Origin: Nymphaea colorata
Taxonomy: Eukaryota; Streptophyta; Magnoliopsida; Nymphaeales; Nymphaeaceae
Reading direction: 5' to 3'
DNA: 64,000 nucleotides
Assembly: GCF_008831285.2 (NCBI RefSeq)
Contig: NC_045144.1
Span: 12,193,672-12,257,671, forward strand
The notes beneath the pieces were generated by a model. That model was not told the DNA's origin and searched no databases. It saw only the letters and a program-made list of their open reading frames with translations. Within the stretch, counting starts at the first letter, position 1. Every line of letters starts with the position of its first letter. The translations under genes were made by a program, and so were the position numbers. This document shows positions 39,201 through 57,200 of the stretch, piece after piece.

Positions 39201-42200
39201 TTTGAAATCTGGAATTGATAGCAAACTTAAATGCATTAACCGACTGCTTGATAATGGAGTACTTTGCAGCGAGTGCAGGCAACGGGTGATAAACAGGTCA
39301 CATCCTACATTTTATCAATTCTACTTTCTACATAATTCATTTCACGCATCCAGAAATAGGTAATAGGAACATAGTTACAAATAATGTTTCAGAGTTTTAA
39401 ACGGCGAGGTTTTTCTCAAGTATAATACGGCGAGCTTGAAAAAAAAAGGAAAAAACAGTAAATTTTTTAAAATTAAAAAAAAAAGCTAAAACTGAGGGAA
39501 AAATATAATAAGTGAGAAACTAATAACACAAACATCAAAAAATAAGTAAATTTGCAAACAAATAAAAAATAGAAAATGAAAAAAAATTTGGCATTAAAAA
39601 AATGAAAAAACACAAAAAAACACAAAAAATATGCAAAACAATGTGTTATTGCTTTTAACGTTTAAAAAAAAGTGTTCATTTAAGTTTTAAACGGTTGTCC
39701 TATTTATCGCTTTTTTTTCAAAAAAAAATGTTTTTTGTGCCACTGAATAGGAAGGCACAAATCCCCTGCATTTTATTTATAATTTTATTCTATTTTCTAC
39801 ATTGTTTGCTTCTTGCCCAGTTGCCAACAGTTAATACAACTGAGTCTTAGATTGACAGAAAAACAAACTTTTTATGCAGTTGGGGTTTCTGGTTGAACGC
39901 CATGCTATAGAGGTCAAATTAAGGTCCCGAGTAAATTTTTGTTCCAATCACCGACTTGTTTTTTGACAATTACTCAGCAAGGTTCCTCTCAACAAATTTT
40001 GGGAAGCTTTTAATGCAAAAAACTATTAAATAGCATGTTTTCTCCATATCATACAAAGTTGTAGATCAATCCTTCAAATATATAAAAAGAGCAACATTTT
40101 TTCAAAAATTTTGCAAACGAATGTTGTACATAAAGTGGCCTAGCGTGTAGTCTAATATGTTACATTAAATAAAATAACTCTGAAAAGAAAGTTACTCCTA
40201 AAACTAATTTCATGGATGTACCGATGTTTTAAAAGGCATATCATAATGCGTATCGGTCGGCCCGACCTATATGCATATCGTATTGTATCGTAAGCGAATC
40301 GTAGACGTATCGTAAATTTATTTATATTTTAAAAGAAACAGAAAAAATCTTGAAAAATCAAGAAAACGTGTTTTATATAAAAAACTCCTTACACACATAA
40401 TGAACATTTGGTCATTCATCGTTCATAAGTAACATAATAAAATAAAGTATGAACCTTAAAGTATTTTACATCACATTGAAATGTATAATTTGTGGTTGTG
40501 CATTGTCAAATGAGAATTGAAATAATGTTTATGATTAAGTAAAATCATACTTATCATCAACCGATACAAGAATGATTATTGTTTTCATCTTCATCCATTC
40601 AAAATACAACTTTTCCCTTAAGACAATGAATTCTTGGCGTTTTCTTTTTAAAATGGTGAAACCACACCCTCCCAAAACTCTTAGAAACGTTGAAAATGAA
40701 ACGGGAGACGAACTTTTAAAAAAAATCTCAACAAAAAGGGATCTAGGGGCATCAGACCCCTTTGTAAAAAATAGAACCACAATCAGCCAGTGTAAGATTC
40801 GCCCAAAATGGCACGACACATGCATTTTTGTATATCACACTCACATTATATAAGTTTTTCAACCTATACGATACGCATCACACAATACGGCTCTGTATCA
40901 TGCGATGCGGATAACACTAGGTGTAACTACATTATATCCAGTGTAACTTATGATATATCATAGTATCATTAAGGTACGATCAATGTTGTAAAAAGTGTAT
41001 CGTAAGCCGCATCGTTCCGACTTTTAGATACACCGTATCGTAAATTTTTTAAAAAAATAAAAATAAAATCAGAAAAATATAAAAAAAATCGATAAATTCA
41101 TAAAAAATCAGTAAAAAACAAGAATAATATGTTCTTCATAAAAAACATGTTTTACAGAATGATAGACTTATTATTGCTATGTCATGACTCAACAATATCA
41201 ATCTAGAAAGAACAACAAGTCAACAATTACATAATGAAATTGTGAAAATGTTCAATGCCAAATTGCCAATACATAAAAAATGAAAGCACCCTCGACTCTC
41301 ATTCATAATCTTCATCATATTCATTTTCATCTTCATCTTCATCTTCATCTTCATGAATTTGAAGATCCTCACCAACATATCCAGCAGACTCTCCTTTATC
41401 AACAAATTCTTCTGTTGCTTCAGCTTCAAGGTTGAAGAATTGAAGATCTTCATCATCAAATATTGTAGTTGGTTCTTCCTCAATCCATGGTTCTAGATCG
41501 TCAAAGTTTTATAAGCTGATAGGATCAAACTGAGATATGTGTTTTCTTGTTGATACTTTTTGTAATTGTCTATGTTAAATAAGAGAAAACTTGTTAATAA
41601 ATGATTATATATAAATATATTGTAAAACAACTGTAAATATTAAGTTATGTTACCTTTGTTTCAACCTATGTCACATAGGTAGGGGTACGGGTGTTGGTGC
41701 GGGTACCGGAGCGGGTACCGGTACTGACCATTTTCAAAAAACTTGGGTGCGGGGGTACGGCCGTATATATATATAAACAATAAGAAATACTTAGAAACTA
41801 TATATCAAAATAAAGAATATACATCAACATAAACAAATAAATAACATAGAAAATATATATCAACGGCTCTTGCAGTAGTGTGTTTTAGAAACCTTACTGA
41901 AGTACCCATGTGACTTAGGTTTCAACTTTATATTATATCGAACAAAGACAAGGTCATTCAACTTTTTATATTCGAGCCTATTCCCTTTCTTGTTGTGGAT
42001 ATGTTGGAAAATACTTTGATTTCTTTCGCATCCACTAGCCCTACATGTCCTACTAAGGACTTTAATTGTAAAACGTGTTAGGTTTGGACAATCAATCCCA
42101 AACCTATTCCACCACAAAAATAAAACAAATCTCATGTAAAATTTAAAACTTAAAACAACATAAAGGAATCAAATGTAACGAATGCAAAGTAAATTAAAAA

Positions 42201-54200: not shown

Positions 54201-57200
54201 AATAATAATAACCAGCAGCAGAAGCCTGGCTAAAAATGATGCGCTGGAAGCAACAAATAGAAGAATCCCTTGTTATGTATATAGATTTCCTAATTCTCAA
54301 AAACATAAAATTGAAAAAAGACCATTCCCATCAAAAGGAGGAGAAAGCAGCATGAGAAAGAAAGGAACAATAAATCAGGCCATACAACAAGGAGTGACGA
54401 CCCAATAAGGTATCTTTGAAAATATACTGATGGAGTGACAGTCATGATGATCTTACTAGAAGACCTTTGATGCTTTGATTAACTAGTAAGAACAAGGTAA
54501 TCTAAAAATTACAAATTTAACAGGTCACCAAATGAATAGTTTCACTCACAGACAACCTGTGCTGAATTAGCCTGAATATCAAATTTTGAGATACCGTTTA
54601 AGGTCCATGAAAAGAAATTTTGATTATGAAGCTAGAAAAGGCTGGACCTAGAACAGGTTAAAAAACTCTAAAACACTGAAACTATATATCAATATGCAAA
54701 AACTGGTCACATACTCAACAACAAATTCAGCTGCGAGATCCTTCAAGGTCTTCCTCCGCAGGTGATTCTGAACAACCACTGCTGCCTTCTCCTTGCAGTA
54801 TGTTCTTCCACAGTCACAGTCTCTTAGGTAAATTATTACACGTGAGTCAACGTAATCATTTTTTGAGTTATGCTTGCAAAAGAGAATCTCCTGTTCAATA
54901 AATTAGAAAAAAAAATCAGAGAAACCAATAAGTGATGTAGCAGGTGACGTGAAATACCTTCATATTATCCCAGGAGGAGCTGTTACTGGGGGAGGACTCT
55001 AGAACAGCCTTATATGCAGGATTTGACACCGCTGTTGCTGCCAATACACCAACAGGCTCACCAGCAGAAAAGGAAGCTTCAGGAGCAGCTCCATTTCTAA
55101 TGGAGTATGTGAACTGAACAATCGCATTAGTGCACATGTTCCTGACTGTCCCATCATAGCAAATTGTCACATTGCGCAGAATTGCCATCAGATTCTTAAA
55201 CAGAAGACCAGGCTCTGTAAGCCCTCTTGATGACCGAACTATTCCCTCTCTTGATGCAACTGAATGTATTAAATCTTCGAAAGGGTCCAACCCATTAAAC
55301 AAACAGCCACCAACCAAACCCAATGACTCGGGGGAATACTGATTTCCCTCTATGTACTTCTGTCGAGAATGGGAGATAAAGTAATCCACCAAATTGTTAG
55401 AATAGTACTTCCCCCTCGAATATAACTGCTGACCCAAAAATCCAAGCTGTTGAACCACCTTACTGACTGCCTGATCACTGCTGGTATCTATCAGTGAACC
55501 CAGTGATGATGATTTGGAAATATATTGAGTAACCGGACGCTTCACCTCTTTTAAGTAACAATCTACTTGTGATTCAACAAGCTCATTATTTGTCGACCTC
55601 ATAAAGTGCAGCAAAGGTGTCAGATCCTGAAGTTGACGTCCAATATCATGCATAACATGCTGTGGAACATAGAAGTCATTTAGTCCTAAACTACAGCCAT
55701 GGAAAAACAAAATCTCCATAAGCAATGGCTGCAGCACATTAAAGACTCTAACTTCTTTGGATGGACCTTTTGTTATAAGTATCAACTTAAATATTTCAGT
55801 CAGATATGTTTCAAGCTGGCCTTTTTTTATTTCAAATTCAAGAAATTCACTCTTTGTAACTTCGTATCTCTGACCATGGCAATCAAGTAATTCAGGTAAG
55901 GCTGTCTGAAGTACTTGTAAGAATGTCCAGAAAGGTCCAGCTCCATTAGCTTTAATAACTGCCGGCTCTATCAACTGTGGTGATGTCCACATAATTAACT
56001 GTTGTGTTTGGGCTCTGTCTATGAAAAAGTCCTTATAAATGAGCTTTGCAGCCAAAACAGAGTCAAGCACCAGTTGAACGTTCAACATTCCATTGTGGGA
56101 ACTCTGTAACTGCTTCTCAACAGCAAAGAGTTCTTGGACTTCTGCCTTGGCCGATAAGGACTGAGGATAGTATATATGGATGCAATCACCATCGAAATCA
56201 GCACCAAGAGCACCGCAGATGAGAGGGTTGATCTTAACAACATGATCGTCATGGATATAAACAGACAGTGCTTGCAATGAGTGCTTGTGAGTACTAGGAG
56301 GCCTGTTGACAAAGACCAGATCACCATCAATGATCCTCCGATTGATAGCTTGACCAATTTCGAGAGAATGAGGCATCTTCAAACTTTCCCTCATTGTGTA
56401 TCTACATAACCCATCTTTATAACCAAGGCAGAAACCTTTATCTACAAGTGCCTGTAATTTATCCCTGTTAAAAGATGTAACCCTCTCCTCAAATGTAATC
56501 TTTCGTGCAATTTCAAGTGGCAATCCTATTTCATCTATTCCAGTATATGCATCACCAGTTATCACACAGCGAGAAGAGAAACCTGAGCCTTTCCGAATAA
56601 ATAATGTTCGTATCTTCTCAAGCCATGCCTTTGCACAAACATTCATTTCTCTAAGCTTTTTTTCAATAGTTTTAGGAGCCTGATTTGATGAAAGAAAAAC
56701 AATACATAAACTATTTGGTTGACCATGCTTGAAATAGATACCCAGTTAAACAGGAAACATGAAACTGGTCTACCTTAGCAGCACCTCTCTGCTGCATATA
56801 TTGTGCACATGCAGCCTGCAGATCACCAGATTCAATTTCATGTGACTCAAAGTTAACAACGCCATACCTTGACCTCTTGATCATATCCGCCTTGGTTAGT
56901 ATTCTTCTGAGCATGGACATGGTAGGATCCTTAGAAGGAAAAAAAAAATCAGCAACATAAACAGGCATTCAGGATGATTCACATCAGTAAAAGAAACTTA
57001 CAGATGACATGCTACTTATAGCATCAGGAAGGTCAGGTACACAGAGACAATTAGGAGGCACAGGCAAACATTTCAATACAAGACCAGATTGTGGAAAGCA
57101 ACCCCTTCTAGCTAGTGCAGTAACGGTATCTTGAGGAAGATTTTCCAGAATCTGCAAAGCCTGAACACCATGCAGAAAATGAGGACAAGGATGATATGCA

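Follow-up and report, generated by a model that had tools for sequence, protein, structure and literature searches.

How does a gene of the plant silencing machinery come to hold an intron made largely of transposable elements (TEs), and might its own mRNA depend on those elements being silenced? The question is posed by a 64,000-nucleotide stretch of the Nymphaea colorata genome (contig NC_045144.1, positions 12,193,672 to 12,257,671; this whole stretch is called the window here, and coordinates count from its first letter). Its minus strand carries a gene that looks intact and encodes NRPE1, the largest subunit of RNA polymerase V (Pol V), with a 15.5-kb intron in which transposons lie inside transposons. 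We think it probable that transposons have accumulated in a tolerant intron of an intact NRPE1 gene and that heterochromatin masks the TE block there; that the NRPE1 mRNA depends on such masking is put forward as a hypothesis only.

An apparently intact gene for NRPE1

The gene model occupies more than half of the window.

24380..60959, minus strand: NRPE1 gene, defined by its joined exons, matches to Pol V chains in PDB, RPB1 domains 2, 3 and 5, and DUF3223

Seventeen coding exons were found between 60959 and 24380. Joined by splice sites and reading frame – with the last two, at the 3′ end, located by means of a DeCL query – they yield 1762 codons and a single terminal stop, while the alternative frames of the same joined DNA hold 85 and 163 stops. 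Two short queries for exon 1 gave no match in the window, and a 28-base exon candidate (60527-60500) was excluded from the model, since including it would interrupt the reading frame.

The earlier note on this DNA had named the gene NRPE1, and the comparison with PDB chains agrees, with Pol V far ahead of RNA polymerase IV (Pol IV) and RPB1. For the large exon, E-values are ~6e-183 against Pol V, 2.6e-59 against Pol IV and 6.4e-43 against the best RPB1-named chain; for the exons that flank the large intron, they are 6.2e-117 to 7.5e-113 (Pol V) and 5.5e-28 (Pol IV). The protein is nearer to the Pol V largest subunit than to its counterparts in Pol IV or RNA polymerase II (Pol II). Pfam places RPB1 domains 2, 3 and 5 all within the large exon, the metal A motif DFDGD starts at residue 423 of the found frame, and the last exon matches DUF3223 (PF11523, 1.4e-10), giving the protein a DeCL-like end. 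Eight of its nine GW/WG tryptophans lie beyond residue 1300; the C-terminal GW/WG region of NRPE1 is the part that binds AGO.

One gene across a 15.5-kb intron

The intron in question and its surroundings are as follows.

54715..54890, minus strand: NRPE1 exon on the 5′ side of the large intron, placed by PDB alignment; ends inside codon 895 of the found frame
39209..54714, minus strand: large NRPE1 intron, 15,506 bp, with donor GTATGT and acceptor TTCCAG
39133..39208, minus strand: NRPE1 exon on the 3′ side of the large intron, placed by its splice site and PDB alignment
53560..54714, minus strand: part of the intron without a recognised TE, delimited by eye; of gene-like composition and likely part of the ancestral intron

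Exon phases agree at the 54715/39208 junction, and the protein joined across it aligns with 8hil_A, the Pol V largest subunit (query 1-385 of 387, residues 853-1233, E 6.2e-117), and the alignment runs through the junction ungapped. Both halves are therefore one gene as far as the sequence tells. The intron limits proposed earlier prove exact to the base, and the accompanying claim that the exons on both sides stay open and in phase is borne out by the 1762-codon frame and the ungapped junction. One might still read the locus as two separate genes, as an NRPE1 pseudogene or as an assembly artefact, pointing to exons that lie 15.5 kb apart and to exon 1, for which the window gave no match. We give this almost no credence: the junction is phase-matched and ungapped against Pol V, the 17 joined exons are open, with DFDGD present and DUF3223 in the last of them, and the window does not contain a single N.

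The other 15 introns found in the gene measure 67-4434 bp, and the median over all 16 is 688. With the feature limits given here, TEs make up 11,776 of the 15,506 bp of the large intron, or ~76%. A candidate solo long terminal repeat (LTR) picked out by eye at 45386-45632 had been part of a first TE sum (12,027 bp) and is omitted from the final one.

TE domains were sought with Pfam in 20 of 151 open frames of at least 45 amino acids, picked by eye as TE-like or eS17-like, and 11 of the 20 gave matches that passed the chosen thresholds (8 of 10 in a first set, 3 of 10 in a second). PF14244 and PF13683 scored under the cut-off and were retained only since they are consistent with neighbouring domains. 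Two further matches under the curated cut-offs, PF00753 (0.0013) and PF14799 (0.03), came from frame 51397-51726, a simple repeat, and were judged to be chance.

Four primary insertions

Four elements sit directly in the intron, three of the hAT type – two of them miniature inverted-repeat transposable elements (MITEs) – and one retrotransposon. Target-site duplications (TSDs) are given as matching bases out of eight.

39370..39745, no strand assigned: M1, a hAT-type MITE with TSD AATAGGAA (8/8) and a relative at 36083
40223..40919, no strand assigned: M2, a hAT-type MITE of the N1 family (TSD 6/8), homologous to N1 and to the hAT end
40981..44559, minus strand: hAT element with a decayed transposase, sense to NRPE1 (TSD 7/8), with DUF659 and a hAT dimerisation domain
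46117..53240, plus strand: decayed Copia retrotransposon, antisense to NRPE1, with pieces of gag, integrase and reverse transcriptase; outer limits by eye

The 3.6-kb hAT element, presumably the autonomous relative among the hAT-type elements, is identified by PF04937 (DUF659, 8.5e-40) and PF05699 (hAT dimerisation, 2e-09). Above the cut-off, the Copia region yields PF14223, PF13976, PF07727 and PF25597, spread across several frames. No LTR pair was found for it: the best match between 45000-46150 and 53150-53650 scores 34, where 100 shuffles give a mean of 31 and a maximum of 46. It is thus better described as a Copia-derived remnant than as a complete element, and 46117-53240 is its minimum span.

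The Copia coding region also contains a perfect 39-base tandem duplication at 48905-48982 and a second one, of 33 bases (88%), at 49725-49792. A relative of the intron's Copia family lies on the plus strand at 18828-22228, downstream of the 3′ end of NRPE1.

Insertions within insertions

Four further elements of the hAT type are nested in these, one in the hAT element and three in Copia.

41666..41918, no strand assigned: F, a hAT-type MITE inside the hAT element, with TSD GTTTCAAC (8/8); related to N2 and N3
48082..48806, no strand assigned: N1, a hAT-type element inside Copia (TSD 7/8)
50364..51322, no strand assigned: N2, a hAT-type element inside Copia, with TSD GATATTGT (8/8)
51534..52819, plus strand: N3, a hAT-type element inside Copia, with TSD GTTTCAGC (8/8); carries a captured eS17 fragment and is Pack-hAT-like

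The tally of four primary insertions (M1, M2, hAT, Copia) made in the earlier note stands; its tally of three secondary ones does not, as four are counted here (F, N1, N2 and N3). The nested layout that it described holds up on three grounds, namely the Pfam TE domains, the TSDs and the Copia frame, which is open across the sites of N1-N3.

Over the seven intronic hAT-type elements, the TSD is perfect (8/8) in four, 7/8 in two and 6/8 in one, M2 being the weakest. Together with short inverted repeats at their ends, these duplications place the seven in the hAT superfamily. At fixed positions, such matches would arise by chance with a probability of 0.00012 (8/8), 0.00085 (at least 7/8) or 0.0074 (at least 6/8), values that are too favourable because the search for such repeats helped to place the element edges; with two bases of freedom per end, the figures become 0.0017 (8/8) and 0.015 (at least 7/8). 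For N3, the edges first chosen matched at 3/8, and a one-base shift of the left edge produced both 8/8 and an open Copia frame.

When the 60-base flanks are joined at N1, N2 and N3, the Copia frame runs open through every site, from which it follows that Copia was inserted first and N1-N3 later. Joining the hAT flanks at F instead leads to a stop soon past the join, so that the nesting of F, unlike that of N1-N3, draws no support from an open frame; the stop may mark the end of a transposase exon.

By sequence kinship, the hAT-type elements fall into three groups: F, N2 and N3; M2, N1 and the hAT ends; and M1 together with elements found two introns away. M2 and N1 are inverted relative to each other (146 bases at 76%, 69 bases at 80%), and as an inverted pair in the pre-mRNA they could form double-stranded RNA.

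A ribosomal protein gene fragment captured by N3

Inside N3 lies a piece of a host gene, which is an addition to what the earlier note described.

52452..52720, plus strand: fragment of eS17 (40S ribosomal protein S17) inside N3; right limit by eye

An open frame from 52515 matches eS17 residues 22-64/65 (Pfam PF00833, 1.5e-18; eS17 in PDB, 3.8e-19), and an upstream ATG, at 52452, lines up with residue 1. The first 21 codons contain two stops, and the fragment encodes no eS17 protein. Pfam gave no match in the adjacent frames 52421-52669 and 52673-52816; some resemblance to eS17 may continue past residue 65, with a change of frame. Upstream of the start are AAACCCTA at 52384 and GGCCCA at 52334. 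Boxes of these two types mark plant ribosomal protein promoters, and the upstream DNA was presumably captured together with eS17.

N3 is thus a Pack-hAT-like element, with terminal inverted repeats (TIRs), a host gene fragment within its TSD and kinship to N2 and F. Pack-hATs have been described in maize (PMC8903248; citations here and below refer to the available excerpts of the papers), and N3 resembles such Pack-TYPE elements in its TIRs, its 8-bp duplication and its host gene fragment (PMC8903248). The likeness is that of one element, N3.

Could the captured DNA drive transcription against NRPE1? N3 holds the eS17 start with upstream AAACCCTA and GGCCCA, all antisense to NRPE1, and a promoter at 52.4 kb reading towards the exons at 54715-56679 would produce NRPE1 antisense RNA. 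We regard this as highly improbable, given that the eS17 coding part has decayed and that promoters borne by TEs are normally silenced.

How the intron may have grown and been tolerated

The growth of the intron is most likely ordinary transposon accumulation, and the resulting block is probably masked as heterochromatin. Elements of the hAT type and the antisense Copia form a first layer, into which further hAT-type elements came later, entering both hAT and Copia. These insertions would have been tolerated with splice sites and exons spared and with the TE block heterochromatic. Upkeep of the heterochromatin would fall to MET1 and DDM1, perhaps with CMT3-KYP, while RNA-directed DNA methylation (RdDM) would act on short elements and edges. 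Machinery of the IBM2-EDM2 type would let Pol II read through, with TE-borne cryptic poly(A) sites kept silent. Should masking fail, transcripts would be expected to end in the intron and to lose everything past codon 894 of the found frame, and with it what remains of RPB1 domain 5, the GW/WG region and DUF3223.

Base composition offers a faint hint of past methylation. For CAG+CTG, the principal CHG trinucleotides, the ratio to dinucleotide expectation falls to 0.77 (bootstrap 0.68-0.87) in hAT plus Copia, with values of 0.99 (0.92-1.06) in the other NRPE1 introns and non-TE flank, 1.06 in the exons and 0.67 in the TE-rich stretch 8500-23500. This depletion in hAT plus Copia, the one sequence proxy to show a difference, is suggestive but not clean as the trace expected of long CHG methylation.

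Several points weigh against the masked-intron reading. In hAT plus Copia, the control CAC+GTG is reduced as well, at 0.82 (0.71-0.92; Copia 0.76, hAT 0.89), and CHG depletion is absent from N1-N3 (1.01, 0.76-1.36). As a sign of methylation, CpG depletion is uninformative across exons, introns and TEs, since the old Copia (0.41) shows no more depletion than exons (0.32) or other introns (0.35), and N1-N3 are CpG-rich (0.88 to 2.20). Finally, the size of the ancestral intron, perhaps 1-3 kb, is a guess.

The opposite view would be that the large intron is mere baggage, spliced efficiently regardless of methylation. The good donor and acceptor, the antisense orientation of Copia and the size of the nested elements (253 to 1286 bp) would all suit it. 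On the other side, long TE-bearing introns in the plants studied so far are often methylated and sensitive in their processing, and AATAAA occurs in the large intron 15 times on the sense strand and 20 times on the other, although chance may explain both counts in AT-rich DNA. On balance, we consider methylation-independent splicing unlikely, if far from negligible.

Precedents, and a possible role for Pol V itself

The earlier note had appealed to genes whose processing depends on intronic heterochromatin, and such genes are indeed documented in Arabidopsis and rice, where transcription through long TE-bearing introns needs heterochromatin and/or factors of the IBM2/EDM2 type (PMC4417168, PMC5364540, PMC7145194). 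The introns read with the help of IBM2, EDM2 and AIPP1 resemble that of NRPE1 in being long, in bearing TEs or repeats and in sitting within otherwise normal genes (PMC4417168, PMC5364540, PMC10241880, PMC7145194). For an intron to be laden with TEs is not unusual as such: in rice, heterochromatic introns occur in 4,227 of 37,866 gene models, or ~11% (PMC7145194). In a survey of methylation genes, differences in gene length came mainly from the introns (PMC6624907).

Two systems come to mind when the gene concerned itself belongs to the silencing machinery. A methylated IBM1 intron is prevalent across flowering plants: 27 of 65 IBM1 orthologs have introns enriched in CHG methylation (mCHG), and the cacao ortholog has a methylated intron of 27.2 kb (PMC11265718). 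Like IBM1 intron 7, the large NRPE1 intron is a long intron within the coding region of a silencing-machinery gene (PMC11265718); as in the ROS1 rheostat, TEs lie at a methylation-pathway gene, an arrangement that in ROS1 couples pathway output to expression (PMC4380477). The NRPE1 intron and its TEs are known from DNA alone, whereas methylation of the IBM1 intron is reported as crucial for its functional isoform (PMC11265718), and the ROS1 TE, which is proximal (5′) and not intronic, has had its effect tested (PMC4380477). It is quite doubtful that the NRPE1 intron serves as an IBM1-like methylation sensor, in which loss of heterochromatin would lead to a truncated mRNA without the C-terminal GW/WG region; equally doubtful is the corollary that Pol V dose would then be set by genome-wide methylation maintenance, perhaps by Pol V itself.

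A narrower version, the feedback suggested in the earlier note, would close the loop through Pol V: methylation of the intron would depend on Pol V and be needed for full-length NRPE1 mRNA, and Pol V would thereby set its own level. The ROS1 (PMC4380477) and IBM1 (PMC11265718) rheostats are precedents for such an arrangement. At an intronic T-DNA, RdDM, including NRPE1, is needed to establish suppression; its factors are dispensable for maintenance, for which MET1 and DDM1, though not CMT3, are needed (PMC5364540). Transcription defects accompany the loss of CHG methylation from intronic TEs in cmt3, ddm1, met1 and kyp suvh5/6, with the RdDM mutants nrpd1 and nrpe1 as the named exception to this link (PMC4417168). 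In the same paper, nrpe1 is one of four mutants that supplied single affected genes for checking, so that single genes may depend on it. Taken together, the Arabidopsis results on RdDM speak against Pol V closing such a loop, and if the mRNA depends on methylation at all, they point to the maintenance kind; the length of the main intronic TE likewise favours upkeep by other pathways. A Pol V loop is, in our judgement, very unlikely.

Among the titles and abstract openings listed for NRPE1 with introns, long introns, feedback or gene structure – which is no proof of absence – no TE-laden NRPE1 intron was met, and the available excerpts of PMC8101250, PMC10082083 and PMC10241880 contain nothing on an NRPE1 intron.

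If the intron does need heterochromatin, a core RdDM polymerase would be controlled by the kind of mark that the polymerase itself helps to deposit, a form of control that has been reported for IBM1 and suggested for ROS1. The transposon load inside one gene would then be tied to genome-wide silencing capacity, which could vary among accessions or species according to whether they carry the insertions. If it does not, the locus would be a clear example of a transposon load that a silencing gene bears unharmed.

Other elements in the window

Elements of related kinds occur in the 4.4-kb intron of NRPE1, which holds a hAT-type MITE at 38522-38813 with a perfect 8-base duplication (ATTGGGAC) and an M1-related element at 36056-36477 with a perfect 27-base inverted repeat (36056-36082, 36451-36477). 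Upstream of NRPE1 exon 2, a tandem duplication at 62214-63860 has a spacing of ~940 bases and blocks that are 81-91% alike, each copy holding internal repeats of ~130 bases.

Near the start of the window, a Copia element at 3234-8452, with integrase and Pol_BBD domains, is flanked by terminal repeats (3234-3511 and 8176-8452) that are 98-100% alike, and their near-identity makes it probably a recent insertion. An open frame at 1637-2008 matches DUF4216 (4.3e-17), which we take to be a domain of CACTA-type transposons.

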